Positions 17,457 through 64,000 of a DNA stretch of 64,000 bases are shown in pieces (position 1 is the stretch's first letter; each line of letters opens with the position of its first letter). The position numbers and the translations under genes were made by a program. Source of the stretch: Candidatus Poribacteria bacterium (GTDB taxonomy: Bacteria > Poribacteria > WGA-4E > WGA-3G); contig JAPOQK010000032.1 of the NCBI GenBank assembly GCA_026710795.1, positions 1 to 64,000 on the forward strand. Reading direction: 5' to 3'. A model generated the notes under the pieces. That model was not told where the DNA came from. It did not search any database and saw only the letters and a program-made list of their open reading frames with translations.

Positions 17457-19787
17457 TCATTTCCTGATTAACATTTTTCGTGTTGCTGAGAAGTCACCAG
17501 CGTTTATTGTATAGAAATATATTCCACTACTCACAGGTTCACCATCGTTATTCTTTCCATCCCAGTGAACGGCTTGCGATTGGTTTGAATACTCTCCTGC
17601 AGTCTTTCTTCCCGGTGATATGGAACGAACAAGCTCTCCTGTGGAATTATGAATTTCTATGGTTACAATGCTTTCATCAGTAAGTTTGAATGGAATCCAT
17701 GTTTCTGGATTGAAAGGATTTGGAAAGTTTTGCATCAGTTGGTTGCGTTTTATCTGCCCGAGTGTAACGAGCTGCTTTCCATTCGGTTCAACGGAATAAG
17801 GGAGGGTAGAAAATAACTCTTTAGCATCCCATATTTGGTATCGTCCTATTTCATCTGTTCCTACTAAATATGATCCATCAGGACTGAGACCTTGATAATT
17901 TGGACTTGATGGAAACTTAATACGTCTACTTGTTTTCCAATCCCAAATTTGAAGTTCTCCATATTGATTGGTAAACAGGTATCTCTTTTCATGCCCAAAA
18001 TGTATTGGTGAATTTGCACCCGGTAGCGTACTCACATGTTGAGTTGTTTCAGGAAAAATTCTCCAAATTTGAGTTTCTGATTGACCGGCAATGGCTAATA
18101 CCGTTGCTCCATCCGCTAAAGTAGCAAAGGTTAGTGATGAATAGTGAGAATCATCATGTTTGGAAGTTTCGAATCTATATTGAAATTTGAAATTGTCTAC
18201 ATTCCTTTTCCAAACTATAACCCAGTAATTATAGTTATCATTCTCTTCTGTTCTGGCAGTAGCAGCCATATATTGATCATTATCACTAAAAGCGATTTTC
18301 TCAAAGCGGTGTTTCCACGCTGGATAATCTGTATTAACTCTATGCATTTTTTCTGGATCTATTAAGTCCCAAACAAACAGATAACCGAAGGAATCTACCG
18401 CAGCAAGCCATCTTCCTGATGAACTAAATTCTGCATCCTCAAAGTAAATAGCAAATTCCTGAGTTTGTGCTTCAATTTCTCCGTTTTGGATATTTGCAAT
18501 CTCAACCCCAGGATATTTGCTATAAGCAATTCTTTTATTATCAGGAGATATAGCGATACCTTTTTCAAAGTGATATAATCCAGGCAATGCAAAACGCACT
18601 TGTTGTGTTGGAATATCCCAGACTTTAATATAGAAGGATTCTATACTTATCATGGTTTCACCATCTGAACTTAATACTGGTAAACCTCCGATATAATCAG
18701 CGAAAACCTTCTTTTGTTTTTTCATATTTGTATCCCACAATTCTAAAACACCACCTTGAAAATAATTTCCACCATATTGAAGAAGCATTATATTCCCATC
18801 AGGGGATATTATCATTTGCTGCAATTGCCAATAATCGTTTCCAAAAGAGTCAATCCGTTGACCTGATTTTACATCCAATATATACACGTTATTGTGGGCA
18901 GCATACAGGTGTTCTCCATTTGGACTGAATAGTAATTCCGATATTTCCCTATCATCAATCGGTACTTTCCATAGCAGTTGTGTTGATACGACATCCCACA
19001 AATAAACGAAATTTGTTATACTCTCAAAGGATGCAAGATAACGTCCATCTGGACTAATCGCTAATCCTTCGACCCAGTTTCCAGCATGTCCTTCATAGTG
19101 TCCGATCAATTCGTGCGTTTCCAAACTCCACAATTCTATATCTGGTCGTTTTGAGGCGACAATGAGATGTTTACTGTCTGGTGTAAACACATAATCATGA
19201 TCATCTGGTCGACTTGAACATGTTCTACCTACACTCTTATTAATTGGGGGCTGAAGGTCAACATCACATTCAATTGAAGGACGTCTTTCACCATTCATTT
19301 TCCCAATTAATTCACCAGTTTGCCAGTTCCATATCAATATCTCATTATTATCGGAACTGACAAGCAAAGGTTGTATAGGATCAAATTCTGCATTATGATT
19401 TATGAAGGAGGGTGCCTCCCACTCCGATATCAGTTCTCGTGCAATGACATCCCAGATATTTACTGTAGTGGTTTTCGCAGAATTGTTTTCTTCCAATATA
19501 GCTACATGTTCAGCAGATGGACTAAACACGACATAACTGTCTTTGGAACGGACACCGAATTCGTCAATAATTTCTCTGGTATCCCCGTCAACAATCTGTA
19601 TATTAGTGCCAAAATAGTCTGTTCTTAAAAGTGTTTGATTTGTAAGAAAAGCATGCTTTTCAGGTGATGGTTTGCCAAAGGTTGCAATTGGTTCAATACC
19701 AAACGTAGAACAGGGCAGAATTATACTGAAAATTAGTGCAATTAACACATTGACGTTCGGTCTCAAATTCATTAGAAGGTATTTCAT
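17457..19787 (-). CDS. Exported WD40-like propeller protein with C-terminal sorting domain
   Basis: The 776-residue protein has a signal peptide (about 10-32). The body has roughly a dozen degenerate WD40-like blades (FSPSAEHVAILEE, SPDGRYLASFES, WDVVSTQ and similar). Residues about 685-776 are a sorting or FlgD-like Ig domain with NFPNPFNPETWIP, HWDGKNNDGEPVSSGIYFY and a basic end (MLIRK). This domain type resembles the type-A sorting domains that direct proteins to a type IX-like secretion route in Bacteroidota. The pathway used here is unknown. The gene starts 12 bp after the upstream paralogue, so they share a transcript. GGAG precedes the ATG. Confidence 0.85.
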   Translation of the reverse strand: MKYLLMNLRPNVNVLIALIFSIILPCSTFGIEPIATFGKPSPEKHAFLTNQTLLRTDYFGTNIQIVDGDTREIIDEFGVRSKDSYVVFSPSAEHVAILEENNSAKTTTVNIWDVIARELISEWEAPSFINHNAEFDPIQPLLVSSDNNEILIWNWQTGELIGKMNGERRPSIECDVDLQPPINKSVGRTCSSRPDDHDYVFTPDSKHLIVASKRPDIELWSLETHELIGHYEGHAGNWVEGLAISPDGRYLASFESITNFVYLWDVVSTQLLWKVPIDDREISELLFSPNGEHLYAAHNNVYILDVKSGQRIDSFGNDYWQLQQMIISPDGNIMLLQYGGNYFQGGVLELWDTNMKKQKKVFADYIGGLPVLSSDGETMISIESFYIKVWDIPTQQVRFALPGLYHFEKGIAISPDNKRIAYSKYPGVEIANIQNGEIEAQTQEFAIYFEDAEFSSSGRWLAAVDSFGYLFVWDLIDPEKMHRVNTDYPAWKHRFEKIAFSDNDQYMAATARTEENDNYNYWVIVWKRNVDNFKFQYRFETSKHDDSHYSSLTFATLADGATVLAIAGQSETQIWRIFPETTQHVSTLPGANSPIHFGHEKRYLFTNQYGELQIWDWKTSRRIKFPSSPNYQGLSPDGSYLVGTDEIGRYQIWDAKELFSTLPYSVEPNGKQLVTLGQIKRNQLMQNFPNPFNPETWIPFKLTDESIVTIEIHNSTGELVRSISPGRKTAGEYSNQSQAVHWDGKNNDGEPVSSGIYFYTINAGDFSATRKMLIRK

Positions 19788-19799
19788 ACGATACTCCGT

Positions 19800-22169
19800 C
19801 TATTTTTGTATCAACATTTTTCGTGTGGCAGAGAAGTCGCCTGCGTTTATTGTATAGAAATAGATGCCGCTACTCACAGGTTCACCATCGTTATTCTTTC
19901 CATCCCAGTGAACTGCTTGCGATTGGTTTGAATACTCTCCTGCAGTCATTATTCCTGGGGACAAAGACCGAATGAATTCTCCTGTAGAACTGTGGATATC
20001 AATTGTTACTGTACTCTCGTCTGCAAGTTTGAATGGAATCCATGTTTCTGGATTGAAAGGATTTGGAAAGTTTTGCATCAGTTGGTTGCGTTTTATTTGT
20101 CCGAGTGTAACGAACTGCTTCCCATTCGGTTCAACAGCATAGGGTAAGAAGGACAGCATGTGATTTAAATCCCAGATTTGGTATTGTCCTGGAACATCAT
20201 TCGTTAGTAAAAGTGATCCATCCTGACTGATAGACTTATACCATGGAAAAGGTGTTTGATTTACAAGCTTACTCCTCTGCCAGTCCCATATTTGAAAGTT
20301 CATTTCACTGTATGCACTGTATGCAAATAGATAGCGACCATCGTCACTAAATTGTAAGGGGTATACTCCGTTGAACGATGATAATAGAATAGGTTCATCT
20401 GCTAAGAGTTTCCATATATGGATTCCGTCTCTTCCGTTTCCTGCTAAAAGAGTTGAACCGTCTGTATTGGTCAGGAATAAAGGTTGTGCAGCAAAACCCC
20501 CTAACCATGCGTATTTAAAGACAAAGGTGTCCTCTACCCGTTCCCACAACATAATCCAATATTTTGATATATCATCAATTTTTGTGTGTCCCGAAGTTGC
20601 AAAATATTGATCATTTTCACTGAAACCAATTGGGTAGTGTCCACCGGGTAATTGTAGTTTAAAGGGTGGTTCAAGCCTTTGTTTGTTTTCTGGTAAATCG
20701 GTGTTTAAGATATCCACATGTCCCCAATGACCCTTCACTGCAAGCCATTTTCCAGATGAACTGAAGGTAATATTTTCAGGAAGTAAGAAGGAATGTGGAA
20801 ATTGTGTTTCAACTTTGCCCGTATGTAGGTCGCGTATTTCAATTAAAGGTTCTCTCCCAACAGCAATTTTTTGACTGTCGTGAGAGATTGCAATCGTATT
20901 ATATATATAGTCTTCGGAAGGAATGAGTAGTCGCATCTGTTGTGAAGAAACATCCCAAGATTTAATAAAACTTCCTGACATAGCAAGCACGGTATTTCCA
21001 TCTGGACTCAACTTAACATCCCTTGAATAAGACCACTCATTGGCAAAGTCTGCCCATGTCTTGTGTATTCGTTTATTTTCGATGTCCCACACTATTTCAC
21101 CATCAAAATATAATAATAGTAACTTTTTACCGTCAGGTGAAATTCGTAAAGATTGAATAGCCTTAAATTGTGTTTGGAATATATCTATCTGTTGTGCGGA
21201 TTGGACATCCCATACCCGAACTTTATCATACCATCCTTCCAAACCCTCTAAAGGATCATTACCTGACCTACGCAACCCGTATGTATCTGTCGCAACATAT
21301 AGGTGTTGACTGTCAGGGCTGAATACTAAATCTGAAATTCTTCCAATTTCACTTTTTTGCTTCCATATAAGTTGTCTTGACTGGAAATTCCACAGATATA
21401 CTGTACCCGGATCGCTGTCATAGGAAGCGATATATGTACCATCTGGACTGACAGCTAATCCATTTACCCAACTACCAGAATGCACGCCTAAGTGTCCTAT
21501 CAATTGGAGTGTTTCCACATGCCATACCTCTATGTCTGGTCGTTGTGATGCAACAATTAGATATTTACCATCCGGAGTAAACAACATATCATGACTGCGT
21601 GTTTGAAATGCACATGAAGTCTTATATTGTTTGCCATTGGAAGCTGTATAATAATTGCATTGCTCTATCGGACGCCGTTCACCTACCATTGTACCAATTA
21701 GGATTCCGGTTTGCCAATTCCATAGATGAATCTTGTCATAAACTGAGGTAGCAAGTAATGTTTGTGTCGGACTAAATACTGCGGTTTGAAAATTGTCGTC
21801 ATGAACCCATGAAGATATTCGTTCCCTCGCGTTTACATCCCAAATGGTTAAATCATAAGTCTTTGTACTACTGGAATAATTCTGAATTACGACATGTGAA
21901 CCTGTTTTACTAATTACACTACTAAAGTGGTATTCCAGATTACCAAATTCATCTTCTACCTCACCTGTGTTAGCATCAACAATCTGCATCTTTGAAGAAA
22001 GAACACGAACAACCGTATCATTGTTCAAGAATGAATTCTGCAGAGGTAAGGGGCTTCCAATCGTGGCAATAGGTTCATTTGCAAATACTATGTCGATTCT
22101 ACATACTAAGAGAATCAAAAAGGTATAAATGAGTAATTTGAGGTTTATTCGGTTCATTAGGGTTCGCAT
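19800..22169 (-). CDS. Exported WD40-like propeller protein with C-terminal sorting domain
   Basis: The 789-residue protein has a signal peptide (about 10-31, ending VFANEP), WD40-like blades across about 35-690, and a C-terminal sorting domain (about 698-789) with NFPNPFNPETWIP and a closing MLIQK. It is a paralogue of the genes on both sides, and the sorting-domain DNA is nearly identical to the 17457 gene while the propeller parts have diverged. GGAGAGTCGCG precedes the ATG. It is the first gene of an operon headed by a sigma-54-type promoter at 22283-22298 with two palindromic upstream sites. Confidence 0.85.
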   Translation of the reverse strand: MRTLMNRINLKLLIYTFLILLVCRIDIVFANEPIATIGSPLPLQNSFLNNDTVVRVLSSKMQIVDANTGEVEDEFGNLEYHFSSVISKTGSHVVIQNYSSSTKTYDLTIWDVNARERISSWVHDDNFQTAVFSPTQTLLATSVYDKIHLWNWQTGILIGTMVGERRPIEQCNYYTASNGKQYKTSCAFQTRSHDMLFTPDGKYLIVASQRPDIEVWHVETLQLIGHLGVHSGSWVNGLAVSPDGTYIASYDSDPGTVYLWNFQSRQLIWKQKSEIGRISDLVFSPDSQHLYVATDTYGLRRSGNDPLEGLEGWYDKVRVWDVQSAQQIDIFQTQFKAIQSLRISPDGKKLLLLYFDGEIVWDIENKRIHKTWADFANEWSYSRDVKLSPDGNTVLAMSGSFIKSWDVSSQQMRLLIPSEDYIYNTIAISHDSQKIAVGREPLIEIRDLHTGKVETQFPHSFLLPENITFSSSGKWLAVKGHWGHVDILNTDLPENKQRLEPPFKLQLPGGHYPIGFSENDQYFATSGHTKIDDISKYWIMLWERVEDTFVFKYAWLGGFAAQPLFLTNTDGSTLLAGNGRDGIHIWKLLADEPILLSSFNGVYPLQFSDDGRYLFAYSAYSEMNFQIWDWQRSKLVNQTPFPWYKSISQDGSLLLTNDVPGQYQIWDLNHMLSFLPYAVEPNGKQFVTLGQIKRNQLMQNFPNPFNPETWIPFKLADESTVTIDIHSSTGEFIRSLSPGIMTAGEYSNQSQAVHWDGKNNDGEPVSSGIYFYTINAGDFSATRKMLIQK

Positions 22170-22282
22170 CGCGACTCTCCATATTTGAATGCTGAAATAT
22201 ATTCTGTCGATAATTCTTGATATAAAATGATTTCTACATTATAGGTTGTCAATATGAGACAGAAGTATTTATTCAATATAGC

Positions 22283-22298
22283 AGCAATTTTTGTGCCA
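22283..22298 (-). promoter_or_regulatory. Sigma-54 (-24/-12) promoter
   Basis: The minus strand reads TGGCACAAAAATTGCT, a full match to the sigma-54 consensus TGGCAC-N5-TTGCW, with GG and GC separated by 10 bases. Transcription would start near 22272, about 100 bases before the ATG at 22169. The spacing to the upstream palindromes (62 bp between elements) is the same as at the second copy near 28230. Confidence 0.75.
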
Positions 22299-22360
22299 AA
22301 ATATAATTCGTGTAAAACTGCTACTTTTCAATGTTAGAAGGTATTAAAAAAGAAATCAGC

Positions 22361-22406
22361 TGCACGTGGATGTGCAGCTGATATTGATTATGCACGATAT
22401 TGTACA
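22361..22406 (-). promoter_or_regulatory. Paired palindromic upstream activator sites
   Basis: Two 16-bp dyads fit TGCACR-N4-TGTRCA: TGCACGTGGATGTGCA (22361-22376) and TGCACGATATTGTACA (22391-22406), exactly 30 bp apart. They lie about 63 bp upstream of the sigma-54 promoter, the usual place for a bacterial enhancer-binding protein. The first dyad sits in a longer 11-bp inverted repeat (22355-22382), which could also act as a terminator for the gene ending at 22483. Confidence 0.6.
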
Positions 22407-22482
22407 GTCATCAAAACATTATAATCAAAGTTGTGACGCCTAAATGTTGTGCTTAAGTGGTTTTTAACGCCACAAAACCGTC

Positions 22483-24765
22483 TTATTTCCTGATAAGCAT
22501 TTTTCGTGTTGCTGAGAAGTCTTCTGCTTGAATAGTATAGAAGTAAATACCGCTACTCACAGGTTCACCATCATTATTCAATCCATCCCAATGGACTGCT
22601 TGTGATTGGTTTGAATAATCTCCTGCATTCATTTTTCCAACAGACAAAGAACGGATAAGTTGTCCTTCGTAATTATGAATTTCTATGGTTACATTGCTAT
22701 CATCTGCAAGTTTGAATGGAATCCAAGTTTCAGGATTAAATGGATTAGGAAAGTTTTGCATGAGTTGATTTCGTTTTATCTGTCCGAGGGTAACAAACTG
22801 CTTACCATTTGGTTCAACTGAATAGGGTAAGAGAGATAGGATATTATTTATATCATAGATTTCATATAGTCCGTCTGTATTATATGCACCTATAACAGAA
22901 CAATCCTCGCTAATTGAATATACACTTGGAAGTTGCGTGTGTTTAATAGGTTTGGTTTTCTGCCAGTCCCAGATTTGGATGTGATCAATATTATTGACAA
23001 AGAGATAACGACCTGTACCACAAAATTGTAATGAATTTTCTCCATCCAATGTAGTTAATAGTCGAAGGTTGTTTAAGAAGACTTTCATCAGGTGAATTTC
23101 ATTATTGATAGATGCCGCTAAAACTAATGAACCATCTTTAGTTGTTGTAAAGATAAGATCGGATGCCAATTTTGGTGTGGACATCACGTTTTGGAAGAGG
23201 TAAATGCCTTCAATGCGTTTCCATACCATTATCCAATATTTCGTATTGTTATTCACTGATGTAGTGCATGAAGCAGCCAAATAATCTTCATCGTTGCTGA
23301 AAGCAATAGAATGGTGGTTTGGACTCTGAAAATCTATATTTCTATTGAGCCGAAGTATATTATCCATCCTGTTTACATCAAGAATAATGAGATCATTCCA
23401 TCCATTCACTACTGCCAACCATCTGCCCGAAGGACTGAATAACATTTTCTCTATATCAGATACATAATGTGGAAAACGCGCTGTTACTCTACCACTTTGA
23501 TTGTCACGCAATTCAACCCTTAAATTCTTACCAACAGCAATATTCTGATTATCTGGAGAAAATGCTATTCCAGAAAACATATAGTTATCTGAAGTCTCAA
23601 CAAACAGTATCTTCTGTGTTGTTATATCCCATGTTTTAAAAGTTACATATGATATAGTAGATAATGTTTTTCCATCTGGACTCATTTCAAGCTTATTATG
23701 GAGTCGACTCCTTGTATAATCTGCCCAAACGTGTTTATTCTTTTTCTTTTCAATATCATAGACTACATCTACATCCCAATATCCTAAAATAGCAGTTTTT
23801 TCATCAGGAGATAGAACTACAGACTCCAAAAAGTTAAAATCAGTTCCATACGAATCAATCTGTTGTCCTGATTGCGTATTCCAGACACGGACTGTGTCAT
23901 CCCAGCCAACGTATGGGTTATCACCTTTTCTACTCAATGCACCTGTCCTTGTAGCAACATATAATTTTTGACTATCGTCACTGAATTCAACATTTGTAAT
24001 TCGACCAATCCCATTCTTCTTATACCATAGTTGTTGTCGTGTTTCCACATCCCAAACATAGAAATATGTTGTATTGTCTTCAAAGGCCGCAACATACTTT
24101 TCATTTGGACTGACGGCAATACCTTCCAGACTATTAAAGCTGAGATCAGTAACTGTAGTTTCTAAAAGATGTGATTCAATATTCCATATCTCTATATCAT
24201 GCCTTGACGCAATGAATAGATGTTCTCCGTCACGAGTAAACTCCATTGAGACTAAATATGGAAAGTTTACACGTTCCATTTTCCCAATAGATTCCCCATT
24301 TTCCCAGTTCCATAAATGTATTTCATTTGGTAAATTTGTTGCGATTATAGGTTTCGTAGGACTAAATGCAGCATCATTATCATCAATTCGCGATGCTATC
24401 TTCCACTGTGAAACAAGTTCTTTATCAATCACACTCCAAATATTGACAGTGGTCATCCTTGTATTAACATTAAAACTTAGAATTGCCAAATGTTCTGCAT
24501 CTGAACTGAATACAACATCATCCCTATAGTCTTTTTCTCCAAATTCATCCATCACTGTATTTGTAGCGACATCAACAATTTGGATATTCGTCCAATTGAC
24601 CCGGAGTATCGTTTCGTTGTTAATAAATATATGTTTTTGAGGGATTGCCTGTCCTATTGTCGCTATTGGTTCAATTGCAAATCCTATACTTGGAATACTG
24701 GCGATGTAAATAAGAATAGAATAAATCCAAATGTATCGTTCAAAACTTGATCTGAAATATTTCAT
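22483..24765 (-). CDS. Exported WD40-like propeller protein with C-terminal sorting domain
   Basis: A 760-residue paralogue of the two genes downstream. It has a signal peptide (about 10-30, ending GFAIEP), WD40-like blades through about residue 660, and the C-terminal sorting domain (about 669-760) with NFPNPFNPETWIP, HWDGLNNDGEPVSSGIYFY and MLIRK. It starts 39 bp after the large putative outer-membrane barrel gene and has GGAGATATTAA before the ATG, so it is probably co-transcribed with the barrel from the sigma-54 promoter at 28223-28238. It is likely an extracytoplasmic binding protein; no enzymatic motif is seen. Confidence 0.85.
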   Translation of the reverse strand: MKYFRSSFERYIWIYSILIYIASIPSIGFAIEPIATIGQAIPQKHIFINNETILRVNWTNIQIVDVATNTVMDEFGEKDYRDDVVFSSDAEHLAILSFNVNTRMTTVNIWSVIDKELVSQWKIASRIDDNDAAFSPTKPIIATNLPNEIHLWNWENGESIGKMERVNFPYLVSMEFTRDGEHLFIASRHDIEIWNIESHLLETTVTDLSFNSLEGIAVSPNEKYVAAFEDNTTYFYVWDVETRQQLWYKKNGIGRITNVEFSDDSQKLYVATRTGALSRKGDNPYVGWDDTVRVWNTQSGQQIDSYGTDFNFLESVVLSPDEKTAILGYWDVDVVYDIEKKKNKHVWADYTRSRLHNKLEMSPDGKTLSTISYVTFKTWDITTQKILFVETSDNYMFSGIAFSPDNQNIAVGKNLRVELRDNQSGRVTARFPHYVSDIEKMLFSPSGRWLAVVNGWNDLIILDVNRMDNILRLNRNIDFQSPNHHSIAFSNDEDYLAASCTTSVNNNTKYWIMVWKRIEGIYLFQNVMSTPKLASDLIFTTTKDGSLVLAASINNEIHLMKVFLNNLRLLTTLDGENSLQFCGTGRYLFVNNIDHIQIWDWQKTKPIKHTQLPSVYSISEDCSVIGAYNTDGLYEIYDINNILSLLPYSVEPNGKQFVTLGQIKRNQLMQNFPNPFNPETWIPFKLADDSNVTIEIHNYEGQLIRSLSVGKMNAGDYSNQSQAVHWDGLNNDGEPVSSGIYFYTIQAEDFSATRKMLIRK

Positions 24766-56871: not shown

Positions 56872-57197
56872 ATATAAGTCTGTTCGTTTAAACAATTTCT
56901 GTGGAATATTGATTTCTGCTAACTTCATCAGACATAATTTCAAGTATATAGATGGAGGTAGTACATGTCTCAAGAGGCACTGTGTTATTATGCTTGAAGA
57001 ATTTGTTGATTCATTGTGAATGAAAGTCATTGTATTTTACGAAATATCAGAAATGTGCCTTAACATTCTGATTTAACGCTTTCCTACCTAAACAAACAAT
57101 TCCTATAGTTCCCTCCTAATGTATCCGCGAATATTGTTAAACTGCATCCGAAAATGTGTATATGTGGTTAAAATAAATACCTCTAATGGAGTATACT
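56872..57197. other. 326-bp region before the selenoprotein array
   Basis: No gene and no strong promoter. TTGTTA near 57133 and TATATG near 57158 are 19 bases apart and could be a weak promoter. No convincing terminator for leuD was seen, so read-through from leuCD into the array cannot be excluded. Confidence 0.4.
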
Positions 57198-58736
57198 ATG
57201 AAATCGGTATCAAACAAAATTACACTTAATCTTAGTAGCGATGAAAAAGTGACAATCAAAGGTAACATCGCGCCTATTGAGGACATGAGTCCAAACTTCC
57301 ACGAAGAATGGGATGCATTGGCGAATTTCCGTGTTCACGAACCTGAAAAGGAGTATTCCACATCAGTTTTTCGTGCGTTTCTTCCGAATGATCCTGTTAC
57401 TGTTGGAGAATATTGGGAGGTTGAAGAAACTGGTATATTGGAGCTGCTTCGTCAATTAAATCCCAACCCTAATCTGGAAATGCATATTGATATTGGTGAT
57501 TCTTCTGGACTGTGGGCATGCCTACTTGCCCATAACGATCAACATGCACATATCGTGTTTCGTATCCACGCAGAATTTGCATTACAAGATGGATGGTTCA
57601 CCCCTTCTCACTTTGCGGGAGATCTGATTATTGATCAAACTAAAAAGGATGTCGTATCCTTCCAAATGCACGTTCCAGAGGGCAAATGGTTTGATGTAAA
57701 CTGGAAAAAAGATAAGGACGCTCCTGATTTTGTTTATAGTACTGCTGCTGGTGTTTGTCCGCTAATTCAACTCTACGGTCATACACGAGAAAACCCAAAG
57801 GATACTAATTACACAACGTTCGTAACACGAGAAAAAGCTAAAAACATCCTTTTACGGCAATTCTATAAATCACACCAAATTGATTGGTTACCTTTTGACG
57901 AAGCTTATGAAATAGCACAAGCAGAGCAGAAACCGATCCATGTCCTATCAATTGACGGTCCTCTTGACGACGAGGCGTGCTGAGGAAGTGGAAAAAACTT
58001 GAGGGCAGTTGTCCTCGCCGATGAACGAATAATCAACTATCTAAATGAAAATTACATTAACACATGGATACGTACTATTGATTTGAAACGCTTACGTGAT
58101 ACTATGCGGCTTGAGAAAATGCCACCTTTAGCCCGTTCAATCATCTGTAATAAATGGCGTAGAGGACCAGTAGATACATGGATATTTTCACCTGAACTTG
58201 AGACTATAGGACATATCCCTGTCAATGATTATCTTGGAAGCAACAGACGAGAAGATGGTACACTTGAAAGTGACAATTACCTGTTGTTTCTCAAGGATGC
58301 TTTAGCAGCAAAACTTCCCGGTTTAGGAAACATTATTCTTACCCCAGAACAACCGTCACACACAGTATTGGATGTATTTCGCACACCGGAATATGGGCAT
58401 CAGGATTACAACGTAGTCGTGATTGATACTACCGCGTTTGAAAACGGCGGCACACTCACTGTTGATATGGAATTGGGAATCGATAAAGCGTACGGTTCAT
58501 TCTTCCTGCTTGATGCAGAACATAAACTTTCCTTTGATGCTGATAAGAACCGACCAGATGCTAACATGTTTGATGGTGCACACGACATAGGATGGTATGA
58601 TCCATGCGAAATTGGTCAGATGACTCATTGTTTTGAACAAGGACAAATCTACAAATTGGTAGGTATGGGTTGGGCATCTAACGAAAGGGGAAGCATTAAC
58701 GCCTTTCAAGCGAAGATCTCTGTCGAGGAGAACTGA
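57198..58736 (+). CDS. Selenoprotein N-like protein 1 (UGA at 57981 read as Sec)
   Basis: Read through the TGA at 57981-57983 this is one 512-residue protein with Sec262. The start at 57198 (GGAG 6 bases before) aligns with the paralogues; an ATG at 57186 lacks a site. An N-terminal domain has FRIHAEF (121-127) and FTPSHFAG (134-141), followed by AEQKPIHVLSIDGPLDDEAC-U-GSGKNLR, matching the central and redox parts of animal SELENON, then a thioredoxin-like half with LNENYINTW and FLKDAL. Residues about 388-512 are an added beta-rich domain. There is no signal peptide or EF-hand. A stem-loop follows the TGA. Reductase activity is expected by family; the partner is unknown. Confidence 0.85.
57981..58017 (+). 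promoter_or_regulatory. UGA Sec codon and bacterial SECIS-like hairpin 1
   Basis: TGA (57981-57983), 17 bases, then stem GAGGGC (58001-58006), loop AGTT, stem GTCCTC (58011-58016), with a U-G pair below. The loop has a G in second place, as in SelB-bound bacterial SECIS loops. Confidence 0.75.
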
Positions 58737-58737
58737 A

Positions 58738-60258
58738 ATGGACACTTTACCAAACAAAATTACACTTAATCTTGACGGTGATGCAGAAGTGTCCGTCAAA
58801 GGTTTCATCGCACCGATTGAATACACACAATACAACTTCCATGTGGAGTGGGATGAACTGGCAAACATGCAGGTTGCACAACCTGAAAAACAGTATAAAA
58901 CATCGGTTTTCGATGCATTTTTACCATCGGAGTCAGTTTCAGTGGGTGAATGTTGGGAAGTTAATGAAGGTATCTTGGAATTACTCAGCCAACTTCAACC
59001 GAATCCGAACTTAAAAATGCACATTAATAATGGAGATTCTCTTGGATTATGGGCATGTCTACGAGCTTACAACGATAAATATGCTGACATTATGTTTCGC
59101 GTTCATGCAGAATTTAAGCTAAAGGAAGGTTGGTTCACACCGTCCCAATTTGCTGGACAAATCGTTATCAATCGAAACTCAGAAAAAATCGTATTCTTTC
59201 AAATGCACGTGCCTAATGGCACGTTGAACTTTGATGTTAATTGGGACGATACGGGTACTGATATCGGTTTTTGTCCTAAAATGGAACTTTGTACTGGCAC
59301 ACTTCCTCAGGAAATTGAATACTCAGAGTCAATCACAGAAATTGAAGCTGCACGTGAACTAATACTACGTTTCTACAATTCAGAAAAAATTCATTGGGTT
59401 TCTTTGGAAGAGGCATTGGAAATGGCACCGATACAACAGAAACCGATCCATGCAGTCTCAATAGATGGACCTCTCTTGGACGAATCCTGCTGAGCAAGCG
59501 GTAAAGGTTTGAGGGCAGGTGTCCTCGGTAAAGATAAAATAATTGACTTTTTAAACGAACATTTTATTAACACTTGGGTGTTAAACTCAGATTTAGGACG
59601 TGTTCGCAGCTTACGTGAACCAATAGCCAAGAGACGTGAGCATGAATCCAAACCGTTTGATACAACACATCCTTTGGCACAAGCCATCATAAAAGGTTGG
59701 AAGACGGGGTCAAAAAAGGGGTCTCCTGTGGATTGCTTTGTCATATCACCTGAGTTTGAGTTGATGGGTAAGCAACAGATTCATAAACTTGAAAGGGGAA
59801 TCAACCGAAAAGAATATTACCTTACATATCTCAAGGATGCATTGGAGGGTAAAGAACCAGGATTGGGAAATATTGTTCTCACGAGAGAGCATCCTTTGGA
59901 AGAGGTATCAGACTTAATCCGGACTCCAACAGCTGACGATGAAAACCTAACAATTATAGTTATTGATGCAATGTCTTTTGAAAACGGAGGAACATTAACC
60001 GTTGATATTGTCATCGGTAGAGAAGATGGAGAAGGGGCATTCTATCTGTTTGATAGAGATTTTGAACTACCTACAGAGGAAGAAGTATCGGAACAAGGCA
60101 GTCTTGCGTGGACATGGGGAGAACCTGATGAGAAAAGACAAATTGAGTATAGTTTCAATCGTGGACAATTCTTTAAATTAGTTGTTACGCGTTATTGGGA
60201 TGAAGATGTGCCTTATATAAACGCTTTCCACGCCAAAATTTCTGTGGAGGAAAATTGA
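58738..60258 (+). CDS. Selenoprotein N-like protein 2 (UGA at 59491 read as Sec)
   Basis: A 506-residue protein with Sec252 when the TGA at 59491-59493 is read through. It begins 1 base after the previous stop, with AGGAG in the last codons of that gene. The N-terminal half has WACLRAYND, FRVHAEF, FTPSQFAG and FDVNW. The redox motif is DESC-U-ASGKGLR, with Ala where the other copies have Gly. The C-terminal half is thioredoxin-like (FLNEHFINTWV, PVDCFVISPEFELMG, YLKDALEGKEPGLGNIVL), then one beta domain (GGTLTVDIVIG, ending FHAKISVEEN). It is likely a redox protein of the SELENON type. Confidence 0.85.
59491..59526 (+). promoter_or_regulatory. UGA Sec codon and bacterial SECIS-like hairpin 2
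   Basis: TGA (59491-59493), 17 bases, stem GAGGGC (59511-59516), loop AGGT, stem GTCCTC (59521-59526). Confidence 0.75.
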
Positions 60259-60259
60259 A

Positions 60260-62290
60260 ATGGACACTTTACCAAACAAAATTACACTCAATCTTGACGG
60301 TGATGCAGGAGTGTTGGTCAAAGGTTTCATCGCACCGATTGAATACACACAATACAACTTCCATGTGGAGTGGGACGAATTAGCAAATCTACGGGTTGCT
60401 GAACCGGAGAAACAGTATCCTGCATCGGTTTTCCAAGCATTTCTTCCGTCGGATCTCGTTTCAGTGGGTAAATGCTGGCAGATTGGAGAAGAAAGTGTGC
60501 TTACGTTGTTACAGCAGCTCCATCCCAATCCAAAACTAAGGTTGCAAAATGATGACGAGGATTACACTGGATTCTGGGCATGTCTACGTTCTTTTAATGA
60601 TGAATTCGCTGAAATCGTATTCCGTATTCATGCAGAATTTATCATGAAAAACGGTAAATTGACACTATCACAGTTTACAGGGAATTTAGTAATAGACCGA
60701 ATTCAGCAGAAAGTTGTGTCTTTCAAAATGTTCGTTCCACCAACAACACTGAACTTTGATGCCGGTTGGAAGCAAGAGGACGGGAACTACTTTGCAGAGA
60801 TAGGTTATTGTCCACGACTTGAACTATCTGCTGGTAGATATCCTACTGATGTTGAATTCACCACATCAATCACCCAAGAAGAAGCAGAAAGTAAACTGAT
60901 ATCGCATTACTACATGTTTCATAAAATAAAATGGGTATCGTTGGAGGAAGCGTTTGAACAAGCACCTATCCAACAAAAACCGATACATGCTGTCTCTTTA
61001 GATGGACCGCTTTTTGACGAGTCGTGCTGAGGGACCGGCAGAATCTTGAGGACAGGTGTTCTCTCTAAAGGCAACATAATTGACTATTTAAACGAAAACT
61101 ATATCAATACGTGGGTGGAAAATGCGGAATTGGGACGGACAGGCAGTTTACAAGACCCAATTGCAAAAAGACGTAAACGTGAAGGCACAATATTTAACAC
61201 AAGCCACGCCTTAGCCAGAACTATAATGAAAGGATGGGTTAAAGGTTCACCAGTAGACTGTTTCGTTATCTCACATGATTTTGAATTGATGGGAAGTGTT
61301 GACTTCAATGAATTCCTTGACAACATGCAAAAGCCTGAAGATGAACCTATTGCATATCTACAGTTTCTCAATGATTCTTTGGAAGGAAAACGACCTGGAT
61401 TGGGCGATATAATCCTTACCTCTGAACAACCCTCACAAGAGGTAATTGGCACTTATGTCACACCAAAGATGGCACATGAGAACTATACCGTTATCGGAAT
61501 AGATACCATTGCATATAATGAAGGTGGGACACTTACTATTGACATCAAAGTTGGTAGAGATGATGCAATAGGCTTGTTTTACCTGCTTGATGTAGAAAAG
61601 AAAATACCAACTGAGAAAGTTCCTGAAGGCGTTGATCCTGGTGATTGGCACAATCAGGAGAGTGATGAATATGAAAAGGCACTTGGTGCACTTGCGAAAT
61701 CTTGGGGGATATTCCCCGGTAAAACTGGTAAAATAACACACACTTTTGATAAAGGACAACGATTTAAATTGTGTGCAACTGGGGATCAATGGGGTGGAGT
61801 CGGAGGAATAAATGCTTTCCATGCAAAAGTGACTGTAGAGGAGGGACAAATGGAATCCTCAGAGAAGAATGAGACTGAAGTAAGTAAAAATACTATAAAG
61901 GAGTTGCACATTGTTCTTAACAAAGAAAATCAAACACAGCAGGTATTAGACATTTTTCGTACACCGGGAAGAGGTTTTCAGGATTACAACGTTATTAATA
62001 TTGACACAACTGCATTCAAAGGTGGAGGAGTCTTAACCATTGAAATTGAAGTCGGTGGGGCAGAACCTGCTGGATCGTTTGATCTCTTTGATGAGGACGA
62101 TGAACTTCCCATTGAAGGCATACCAGATGCTCTCGTTTCCGCATGGGGTGTATTACCCTGTCAGACAGATAAAATAACACACGAATTTGATACTGGCAAA
62201 GTCTTTAAACTTGGTGCTACCGGTGACTGGTTTAGTGAGAAAGGAAATATTAACGCATTTCAGCTTAAAATATCTGTTGAGGAAAAATAA
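60260..62290 (+). CDS. Selenoprotein N-like protein 3 with duplicated C-terminal domain (UGA at 61028 read as Sec)
   Basis: The 676-residue protein (Sec257) starts 1 base after the previous gene, with a GAGGA site inside it. It shares FRIHAEF, the TLNFDAGW strand, IGYCPRLELS (compare DIGYIPQMEL in human SELENON) and DESC-U-GTGRILR. After the thioredoxin-like half it carries two copies of the beta domain (about 392-526 and 560-676) joined by a charged linker. The linker starts with GGAGG and an in-frame ATG (61850), just like the junction between separate genes, so the second copy looks like a fused remnant, or a second start that could make a short product. Confidence 0.85.
61028..61063 (+). 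promoter_or_regulatory. UGA Sec codon and bacterial SECIS-like hairpin 3
   Basis: TGA (61028-61030), 17 bases, stem GAGGAC (61048-61053), loop AGGT, stem GTTCTC (61058-61063). Relative to copies 1 and 2, pair 5 changed from G-U to A-U and pair 4 from G-C to G-U, keeping the stem. Confidence 0.75.
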
Positions 62291-63919
62291 GTGAATACAC
62301 ATTCTAACAAAATCATACTCAACATTTCCCCGAATGATACTATTATAGTGAAGGGTAATATCACACCAATTACACTCACACAAAACGATTTCCATGAGGA
62401 ATGGGAAGCATTGGCAAACTTTCGGATTGCGGAACCTGAAAGGGAATATACGACTTCAACTTTCCAATCTTTTCTCACTAATAAATCAATTTCAGTTGGT
62501 GATGTCTGGCAGATTGATGAAGAGGGTGTCATGGAGTTACTTCGACAGATTCATCCAAACCCTAACCTGAAAATGTCAATTAATGCAGGAGATTCTTGTG
62601 GGTTATGGGCATGTCTGCGGGCTTATAATGACAAGTTGGTAGACATTCAATTTCGCTTACATGCGGAGTTTAAGTTTGATGATGGACGGTTTACACCTTC
62701 TCAGTTTACGGGGAAACTAATTATTGACCGAATACAACAAAAAGTTGATTATTTCAAGATGTATGTTCCCGAAGGCACAGTGAACTTTGATGTCGCGTGG
62801 AAAAAATATCCCGATAAACCATATAGTGTTATTGATTCTGGTTTTTGTTCTCAATTGGAACTCTCTACTGGGATACCAAATAATCTGGAGGACACAGAAT
62901 TCACAGAATTTATTTCCCAAGAGGAAGCACAGAAGAAGCTAATGCGTTGTTTCTATAAGTTTGAAGAAATAAATTGGGTGTCGTTTGAAGAAGCAATAGA
63001 AATGGCGAAAACACAACACAAACCTATCCATGTTATTTCAATTGATGGTCCCCTAAAAGATGAGTCCTGCTGAGGAACAGGAAAAGGTTTGAGGGCAGTT
63101 GCTCTCTCTGATAATAAGATTATTGAATTCCTTAATGAAAACCTTATTAACACTTGGGTTTCAAATGTAGAACTAAAACGAACTGATGTCAATAAAGAAT
63201 ACTTTCCGAAGCGTTACCCTGATGATTCAAAAGGTTATGACACAACACTTCCGTTCACACAAGCAATTATGAAGGGGTGGCATCAACATTCACCTGTAGA
63301 TTGTATGGTCATATCTGCTGACTTTGAGTTATTGGGAAGTCTACCAATCAATGAGTTTAATGATATGAGCAAGTCATATCACAAATTTATTCAGGCTGCA
63401 CTATCAGGACAAAATCCTGGCTTGAATAATAAAGGTAATGCTTCACGTACAACCGATTGGTACGCTTTTTTTAACTCAGGAAAACAGGTTGCGGTGAAAA
63501 AGATACCTGAAAATAAGGTTGCGAGGTTAAATGTTGAACTCAATCCTGAACATTTAAGTCAACATGTTATGAATATATTTCGTACACCTGAACACGGTTG
63601 TCAAGATTACACTATTGTTGACATAGATACAAAAGCGATTGAATATGGTTATATGCTTAACATTGATATTCAAGTAGGGAATGCTGAACCCGCAGGTTCG
63701 TTTGATCTATTTGATGGTGATAGCGAAATACCTACAGAAGGCATCCCTCATGAAGCACTTGCCTCTGTGTGGGATATTCCTCCAGGTAAAACTGGGACAA
63801 TCCGACATCGCTGTGAGAATGGTCAACGTTTTAAATTGGGTGCTACTGGTAACTGGTTCAGTGAAAAAGGGAGTGTCAACGCCTTTTACGCAACAATTAC
63901 TGTAGAGGAGAATCAATAA
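62291..63919 (+). CDS. Selenoprotein N-like protein 4 (UGA at 63071 read as Sec)
   Basis: A 542-residue protein with Sec261. It starts at GTG directly after the TAA of the previous gene, with GAGGA inside that gene. Motifs are WACLRAYND, FRLHAEF, FTPSQFTG, TVNFDVAW and DESC-U-GTGKGLR, followed by LNENLINTWV and a thioredoxin-like half. Between that half and the beta domain it has an insertion of about 40 residues (NKGNASRTTDWYAFFNSGKQ and on) not seen in the other copies. The beta domain ends in FYATITVEENQ. It is likely a redox protein of the SELENON type. Confidence 0.85.
63071..63106 (+). promoter_or_regulatory. UGA Sec codon and bacterial SECIS-like hairpin 4
   Basis: TGA (63071-63073), 17 bases, stem GAGGGC (63091-63096), loop AGTT, stem GCTCTC (63101-63106). 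Pair 5 is G-C and pair 4 G-U, again different bases with the same stem. Confidence 0.75.
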
Positions 63920-64000
63920 TTGAATACGCCATCCAAAAGAATCTCACTCAATCTCAATGGTAACGAAACAGTATCTGTGAAAGGTCTCATTGCACCGATC
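63920..64000 (+). CDS. Selenoprotein N-like protein 5, 5' end only
   Basis: A TTG start directly follows the TAA of gene 4, with GAGGAG in that gene's last codons. The 27 codons inside the window read MNTPSKRISLNLNG, then ETVSVKGLIAPI, clearly a fifth member of the array. The redox region, where a TGA would be expected about 250 codons on, lies outside the window. Confidence 0.8.
   Translation, partial: MNTPSKRISLNLNGNETVSVKGLIAPI

Follow-up and report, generated by a model that had tools for sequence, protein, structure and literature searches.

A tandem array of selN-like genes with an internal TGA

At the end of the window (the whole 64,000-nt stretch of Candidatus Poribacteria DNA analysed), five selN-like genes adjoin one another on one strand, each containing one internal TGA when the frames are read with TGA as selenocysteine (Sec). 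The four complete genes span 57198-63919, and the fifth lies at 63920-65506 of the contig. The features are as follows.

57198..58736, + strand: selN-like gene 1; putative Sec codon TGA 57981-57983; terminal stop TGA
58001..58016, + strand: putative SECIS-type hairpin of gene 1; six pairs closing a 4-nt loop; pairing and recoding tests, 51-nt fold
58738..60258, + strand: selN-like gene 2; putative Sec codon TGA 59491-59493; terminal stop TGA; structure predicted
58738..59307, + strand: gene 2 N-terminal beta-rich domain (about aa 1-190) in the predicted model; holds the FRIHAEF-type stretch
59326..59853, + strand: gene 2 thioredoxin-fold domain (about aa 197-372) with Cys251-Sec252; predicted model and Foldseek
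59511..59526, + strand: putative SECIS-type hairpin of gene 2; pairing and recoding tests, 51-nt fold
59890..60252, + strand: gene 2 C-terminal beta-sandwich (about aa 385-505) in the predicted model; beyond the end of the SELENON match
60260..62290, + strand: selN-like gene 3; putative Sec codon TGA 61028-61030; C-terminal domain present twice
61048..61063, + strand: putative SECIS-type hairpin of gene 3; pairing and recoding tests; the 51-nt fold favours another structure
61856..62287, + strand: putative second C-terminal beta-sandwich of gene 3; from the end of the profile match and reading of the sequence
62291..63919, + strand: selN-like gene 4; putative Sec codon TGA 63071-63073; GTG start
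63091..63106, + strand: putative SECIS-type hairpin of gene 4; pairing and recoding tests, 51-nt fold
63920..64000, + strand: first 81 nt of selN-like gene 5, which runs past the end of the window (to 65506 of the contig, TGA at 64700)

Gene 1 was started at 57198, which has GGAG upstream, in preference to the mechanical start at 57186, and it shows 41-46% identity to the other five copies of its own genome. In gene 3, the profile match stops at 61855. The next long frame after gene 5 lies on the opposite strand, and thus the array consists of five genes. This bears out the tandem array of at least five selenoprotein N-like genes with in-frame UGA that a preliminary description had proposed. 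The frames also confirmed its four complete genes with TGA in a shared motif and homologous sequence up to a common end: the TGA of all copies in the genome sits in C-U-[GA]-[ST]-G-[KR], and in genes 1-4 homologous sequence follows it as far as the ending [ST]-V-E-E. A sixth copy was found on another contig, where G000:C70:20767-21525 (minus strand) is its first half; it continues past its TGA.

The stop-to-start gaps between successive array genes are 1, 1, 0 and 0 nt, and a GAGG stretch lies within the last codons of every preceding gene; these short gaps and GAGG stretches make translational coupling of the array genes plausible. Upstream of the array, a promoter scan gave 3 candidates, compared to 2.8 in shuffles, and Tandem Repeats Finder, whose longest period is 500, reported nothing in the array. 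When the 4.7-Mb genome was searched with a covariance model of the 51 nt that begin at the TGA, for which relatives and among them the six own copies were used, these six copies were recovered (E 2.4e-22 to 3.8e-17), and the next match had an E of 0.01.

Reading of the TGA as selenocysteine

The genes that the preliminary description had suggested looking for, selA, selB, selC and selD, are all present in the same genome with scores over the family cut-offs. The tRNA-Sec (73.9 bits, cut-off 47) adjoins selB (360.9 bits), and selA and selD scored 611.9 and 354.4 bits, respectively. The selD frame itself holds a TGA, in K-C-A-G-U-A-S-K, the usual Sec/Cys site of SelD.

If the TGA were a true stop, each gene would encode a protein of ~250-265 aa, and the rest would be a decayed tail or a separately started protein. 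Mechanical ORF calling does yield such pairs, the second half with a TTG start, and this TTG lies at the hairpin described below. The codons found at the site argue against this reading. Among 118 copies from this genome and the Poribacteria records, the Sec site was TGA in 117 and TCA (Ser) in one, with no Cys form and no TAA or TAG. The natural Ser copy is full length and open from end to end under the ordinary code. In 11 chosen genomes, all 52 matches to the thioredoxin domain had one TGA inside. The first motif scan had given 99 matches, 98 of them with TGA; the remaining TGT match was set aside as an unrelated WD40-type protein, and a profile check added 20 missed copies, most of which lack the D of DGP and have a different residue there. 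The count of 118 left out five fragments not covering the site, and L082, which is on the same contig as L046. The median pairwise dN/dS (87 genes) was 0.169 before the TGA and 0.237 and 0.273 behind it, indicating that both halves of the gene, before and behind the TGA, are under purifying selection.

A putative SECIS-type hairpin of six pairs with a loop of 4 starts 18 nt behind the TGA. In 88 distinct sequences, 95.1% of the 528 cells were paired and 10 cells were changed on both sides, neither of which was reached by any of 500 shuffles; pairs with such both-side changes numbered three of six (reached by 11 of 500 shuffles). The hairpin was also, on average, more stable than synonymous recodings, with a mean z of -2.0 over 71 distinct windows (p<0.05 in 42 of them), as opposed to mean z values of -0.37 to 0.35 in eight control windows of the same genes. 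The recoding test, the dN/dS analysis and alignment A1 used the copies from the first motif scan. In subfamily B, each of the six pairs was kept in 12 or 13 of 13 sequences. Twelve of the 88 sequences break two pairs of the 4-nt-loop hairpin; by eye, they could still pair if the register is shifted and the loop lengthened, a form left out of the count. The 51-nt folds of the six own copies gave no z-score under -1.50 and favoured another structure in three. A search of Rfam at E up to 10 returned six weak families with no SECIS among them. Codon choice departed from the background at codons +6 to +11 (KL 1.4 to 2.65) and also outside the hairpin, at -2, -1, +1, +2, +12, +15 and +20 (KL 1.0 to 2.1).

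The purifying selection behind the TGA, its constancy, the hairpin and the full-length Ser copy led us to reject the two-ORF and pseudogene readings, and we regard a true stop at this codon as highly improbable. Another reading, which we consider equally improbable, is that the UGA is read through as a residue other than Sec by a near-cognate or suppressor tRNA. Nothing favours it directly, although readthrough too would keep the frame. Genes 1 and 2 themselves stop at TGA, and TGA closes 6 of the 25 stop-to-stop frames of at least 300 codons in the window, so UGA is not generally recoded and general recoding was rejected. Furthermore, the hairpin, the tRNA-Sec, SelB and SelA are present, as is a SelD whose TGA falls at the usual Sec/Cys position. 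The Sec machinery, the hairpin, the purifying selection behind the TGA and the conservation of TGA at the site together support selenocysteine as its reading. SelB with Sec-tRNA is predicted to bind the hairpin, whereby Sec would be inserted at the UGA.

Relationship to selenoprotein N

The human SELENON sequence used for comparison was entered by hand; its residues fit the mutation positions given in four papers. The single discrepancy is a sentence in the available part of PMC12839072 that places the human Sec at 458, against 462 in the paper's own mutation list. The preliminary description had noted a close match to human SELENON, and the profile test supported it with 142.8 bits (E 1.6e-42) against the hand-entered sequence, compared to 4.5 bits for the best of 2000 shuffles. 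The alignment covers human residues 290-511 of the 290-590 entered. All six own copies showed 27-33% identity to this SELENON sequence over 208-314 columns (E 4e-27 to 2e-33). The match begins ~75 aa before the thioredoxin domain, at aa 120 in gene 2.

Among 48 aligned rows, the residues of human R291, G315, Sec462 and R469 are the same in all 48, and R466 is K or R in all 48; five myopathy sites of SELENON are thus conserved in the bacterial homologues. In the S-C-U-G motif, C and the Sec site occur in 48 of 48 rows, the next residue is G in 44 and A in 4, and C is preceded by S in 28, by A in 17 and by another residue in 3.

The likeness could be no more than what any thioredoxin-fold protein with a CU motif would show, given that no Pfam or NCBIfam family scored above its cut-off for these proteins and that the human sequence was entered by hand. 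However, the identity to all six copies extends outside the thioredoxin domain, the profile score lies far above the shuffles, and the hand-entered sequence fits the published mutation positions, which makes a merely generic likeness the least probable of the readings considered. A sequence search of the PDB with one protein found nothing, and the profile gave one weak match (E 0.89). From the sequence evidence as a whole, we consider it very likely that the array holds five genes, probably both co-transcribed and translationally coupled, whose selenoprotein products are homologues of eukaryotic selenoprotein N in its luminal, catalytic half.

The bacterial and eukaryotic proteins have in common a core that begins at the FRIHAEF stretch and takes in the C-U motif and the [KR]xxR behind it, the thioredoxin-like domain, and a site that is almost always Sec. 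In contrast to SELENON, the bacterial proteins have no EF-hand (the 48 members together matched 12 Pfam families at E up to 1, with no EF-hand family among them) and no membrane anchor seen in the array copies, whose N-termini are not hydrophobic by eye. They also have an added C-terminal beta-sandwich, many tandem paralogues and an in-frame hairpin of bacterial type behind the UGA, whereas SELENON has its SECIS in the 3'UTR. In animals, the physiology of SELENON includes calcium sensing and a redox action on SERCA. The preliminary description had regarded the bacterial copies as soluble, which agrees with the array copies but not with the sixth copy and some relatives, whose N-termini look by eye like signal peptides or lipoboxes. 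It had also treated SELENON as usually an animal protein; according to the available part of PMC7539508, algae have it too, almost always in the Sec form. Among sponges, a SelN is reported for Amphimedon (PMC3473315).

Domain structure and likely function

The fold evidence comes from a predicted structure of the gene 2 protein (pLDDT 88.0, pTM 0.86). Foldseek with the isolated thioredoxin domain gave the DsbH-type 7tkv (E 2.1e-5), DsbH 2ju5, ERp19 1sen and AGR3 3ph9 as best matches, with UAS 2dlx further down the list. The TM-scores by query length were 0.41-0.50 among the first eleven matches, so the fold class is clear but there is no close relative. With the whole 506-aa model as query, TM-scores were low and most matches were to beta-rich proteins. 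With the Thioredox_DsbH/UAS/AGR group (PF03190), whose members presumably have Cys motifs, the bacterial proteins share the fold and the place of the redox site. Their sequence similarity to it is marginal, with 5 of 48 members matched and a best E of 0.11, under the cut-off.

In the predicted fold, Sec lies beside the invariant Cys at the start of the helix behind a strand, and an invariant Pro precedes a later strand. The Cys-Sec pair may cycle as a selenylsulfide, and the proteins would be soluble thiol/selenol oxidoreductases, some exported or lipid-anchored. The beta-sandwich may be a binding or docking module, with diverged copies serving different partners. The many diverged paralogues with extra beta-sandwich domains could also suggest binding functions, and animal SelN is described in the available part of PMC12839072 as both sensing calcium and acting in redox chemistry. 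Sec-containing SelN homologues that are not oxidoreductases, for example structural, metal-binding or sensing proteins, are therefore conceivable, but we consider them unlikely: in the thioredoxin-type active site, an invariant Cys is followed by a Sec that hardly ever varies, and 2 of 14 subfamily B sequences carry a further C-terminal domain, AhpC-TSA by Pfam, a fusion that points to redox chemistry. Thioredoxin-fold selenol oxidoreductases are the likely function suggested by the model.

Distribution and possible origin

The family was found in 64 of 84 genomes of the phylum Poribacteria and in none of 302 sampled genomes outside it, with the best eight candidates per genome scored. A separate scan of genome contigs with six peptides of one protein picks up near relatives only. 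A single-contig genome has up to 12 TGA-bearing matches, and tandem selN-like genes occur up to seven in a row, an arrangement recurring in many Poribacteria genomes. The array that the preliminary description had found striking is thus real but not peculiar to one genome. Its extra domain in each copy holds for the array copies, whereas the array in G013/G014 lacks the beta-sandwich. A tblastn search with gene 2 against plasmids and phages gave no match. At 40 relative loci, many of them short, leuD was found at five and the downstream TonB-type gene at one.

In a tree with the hand-entered human sequence, human joins subfamily B at 99, with one eukaryote, no outgroup and long branches meeting. 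With one eukaryote and no outgroup, the tree shows only that the human sequence attaches between subfamilies A and B. We tentatively suggest, as a possibility somewhat short of even, that SelN was transferred, in one direction or the other, between the sponge-symbiont Poribacteria and eukaryotes (animals or their relatives among the algae) and kept its Sec, and that Poribacteria then expanded it into tandem arrays of specialised selenol oxidoreductases. The Sec signal lies in the 3'UTR in eukaryotes and in frame in bacteria. The SRE of animal SELENON is a hairpin just behind the UGA (PMC12839072, available part). If the transfer is true, the SRE and the in-frame bacterial SECIS would occupy one place, one replacing or giving rise to the other.

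Significance

Mutations in SELENON cause congenital myopathy, and the protein resides in the ER membrane, is hard to study and has an uncertain chemistry. More than a hundred bacterial relatives, of which many are apparently soluble, retain the residues affected in disease and may allow SELENON to be studied in simple soluble forms. As they carry their own in-frame Sec signal, the bacterial copies could be tried in E. coli with selABCD, and the domains fused to them can point to partners.

Other bacterial selenoprotein families likewise have selABCD and a hairpin directly after the UGA, as far as described in the available part of PMC13188914. For nearly every selenoprotein, numerous Cys homologues are said to exist (PMC12013277, available part), in contrast to the selN-like copies, with no Cys form and one Ser form in 118. 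The open-access literature, as far as available, yielded no tandem, diversified families of one selenoprotein, and isolated bacterial SelN, mentioned in the preliminary description as reported, was not found there. Given the distribution pattern, where an animal selenoprotein came from can be put to the test. In one study, most of the sponge-symbiont bins have SelA and SelB together, according to the available part of PMC5649159, and the selN-like family may bear on this co-occurrence.

Organization and distribution of the selN-like genes

Five selN-like genes lie in tandem at the end of the window and beyond it.

57198-63919, + strand: four complete selN-like genes, TGA read as selenocysteine (Sec)
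63920-65506 of the contig, + strand: fifth selN-like gene

Successive genes are separated by stop-to-start gaps of 1, 1, 0, and 0 nt, and a GAGG-type stretch within the V-E-E codons ending each gene precedes the next start. Among relatives found in the first motif scan, 33 of 56 neighbouring pairs were ≤5 nt apart or overlapping, 25 of these 33 with an SD-like word upstream. A sixth copy on another contig of the same genome has a signal-peptide-like N-terminus. The six copies share 41-54% pairwise identity, and the array copies cluster with copies of other species, not with one another, indicating that these paralogues are old. Elsewhere in the window, positions 17457-24765 (- strand) encode three tandem WD40-like proteins (by eye) with a common, sorting-domain-like C-terminal N-F-P-N-P-F-N-P-E-T, and the last of them was the source of a TGT match in the first scan.

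Scanning genome contigs with the second array gene (gene 2) gave 40 loci, every one titled Poribacteria. In a profile census of these loci, the window, and two further loci, L007 and L008 (43 sources), 118 copies covered the Sec site, with TGA in 117 and TCA in one. Sec sites lay <2.6 kb apart in 26 of the 43 sources, the longest runs comprising seven sites (L027, L030). The family was present in 64 of 84 genomes of the phylum (45 of 55 good genomes), all 64 from one order. Beyond the phylum, another 302 genomes gave no Trx-domain match at E 1e-6 among the eight best candidates scored in each. The single-contig genomes G081 (from the window genome's family), G083, G082, G079, and G045 had 12, 9, 8, 6, and 3 matches, respectively. 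One TGA lay inside each of 52 matches from 11 genomes, in part of which the Sec site itself was read directly; one of the 52 also contained a TAA.

Comparison with SELENON

SELENON is an ER protein with an EF-hand and a Trx-like domain, as described in part of PMC12839072, and excerpts of PMC3473315 and PMC7539508 place it in animals, including the sponge Amphimedon, and in algae, respectively. Bacterial SelN was not found among the matches listed in searches of the open-access literature, nor did those searches pair Poribacteria with selenoprotein or selenoprotein N; Poribacteria and selenocysteine occurred together in two papers. Term searches in the accessible text of two reviews (PMC13188914, PMC9312934), deep-Sep (PMC12013277), an Asgard study (PMC11227280), and PMC5029168 also did not find SelN.

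The printed mutations and length of SELENON come from portions of PMC12839072, PMC5356628, PMC8639696, and PMC8967691; one sentence of PMC12839072 puts Sec at 458, contradicting the mutation list of the same paper. The presumed human stretch used for comparison fits the printed S-C-U-G with Sec462, R291, R466, R469, S429, Q509, and the length of 590, as well as G360-Y361-I362 ahead of P363. This stretch, residues 290-590, is taken to be the human sequence. The family profile scored 142.8 bits against it (best of 2000 shuffles, 4.5), and all six own copies matched it by blastp with 27-33% identity. The myopathy residues R291, G315 (placed from c.943G>A), Sec462, and R469 were identical in 48 of 48 aligned rows, and R466 was K or R in all 48.

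Motifs such as L-L-W-G-A-L-D-D-E-S-C-U-A-N-G-K mark a second bacterial subfamily, subfamily B, represented by 13 complete proteins. These scored 111-143 bits with 28-34% identity, on the whole above the own copies (98-115 bits). A tandem array in G013:C14 and G014:C41 (L091, L092, L100, L101) encodes short Sec proteins of ~360 aa; these have no C-terminal domain and end 109-110 aa after Sec, near SELENON's own end.

Selenocysteine machinery

The preliminary description had named selA, selB, selC, and selD in the same genome as a check on the Sec reading. All four were found above curated cut-offs in the window's genome (4.70 Mb in 114 contigs, completeness 94.4%).

C27:128724-128813: tRNA-Sec, adjoining selB
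C27:128874-130769: selB, profile match
C64: selA
C43 (L068:1399-2445), - strand: selD

The selD gene has its own in-frame TGA in the motif K-C-A-G-U-A-S-K, presumably at the usual Cys/Sec place of SelD, and a hairpin (TGGCTC-CGGGT-GAGCTA, by eye) 3' of it. Besides the selN-like genes, selD is the predicted second Sec gene of this genome. Across the phylum, selB was found in 75 of 84 genomes, including 59 of the 64 family-bearing ones; the other five (G029, G032, G047, G058, G059) are 73-83% complete.

Hairpin and coding sequence behind the TGA

The selN-like TGA is followed by a 17-nt spacer and a six-pair hairpin with the loop A-[GC]-[GT]-T. In 88 distinct sequences out of 98 first-scan copies, 95.1% of hairpin cells were paired and the covariation score was 0.149, values each reached by 0 of 500 shuffles. 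Both-sided changes occurred at three of six pairs (equalled by 11 of 500 shuffles), and two pairs were broken in 12 of the 88 sequences. Subfamily B has a hairpin version of its own, in which pairs switch from G-C to C-G and from C-G to U-A. The hairpin was on average more stable than protein-preserving recodings (mean z -2.0 over 71 distinct windows, p<0.05 in 42), whereas eight control windows stayed near zero (mean z -0.37 to 0.35), and protein constraint therefore does not explain it. Codon choice was off background at +6 to +11 and also outside the hairpin, e.g., at +1, +2, and +15. A model of the TGA-hairpin stretch found the six own copies in the whole genome, the next match having an E of 0.01 or worse. 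Against the Sec reading, isolated 51-nt folds of the region were not exceptionally stable, and Rfam gave no match to it.

Across 87 genes, median pairwise dN/dS was 0.169 ahead of the TGA, 0.237 in the Trx part 3' of it once the first 14 codons were excluded, and 0.273 for the C-terminal domain; the maximum was 0.61. The TCA (Ser) copy, in an array (L046:4426 = L082, G036:C82:175886-177472), retains the hairpin sequence, and its frame is uninterrupted over the full length in the ordinary code; apparently, this copy represents a recent loss of Sec.

Domains and likely function

In the gene 2 model (pLDDT 86.3), a beta domain at the N-terminus is followed by a Trx-like domain, in which Cys251-Sec252 sits at a helix start, and then by a C-terminal beta-sandwich. 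The isolated Trx domain (pLDDT 88.0) matched DsbH-type, ERp19, AGR, and UAS structures (best E 2.1e-5). The array proteins share their C-terminal domain (blastp E 1e-17) with a sigma-factor-like protein encoded near the sixth copy (L008:4206-5564, - strand, G000:C70), which by eye includes a hydrophobic segment, and this domain thus looks like a reusable module. Two diverged Sec copies of G079 (L124, L125) have lipobox-like N-termini, LQSC and LPGC (by eye), so some family members may be lipoproteins.

Two of 14 subfamily-B sequences (L115 in G081, L123 in G082) bear a further C-terminal domain with W-A-V-W-N-G-F-C. A Pfam scan of these two and one other assigned the extra domain of L115 and L123 to AhpC-TSA (PF00578; E 2.8e-18 and 4.4e-20). 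Judging from sequence and model, the selN-like proteins are most likely Cys-Sec oxidoreductases, and the AhpC-TSA fusion suggests that they may exchange electrons with peroxiredoxin-like or TlpA-like partners.
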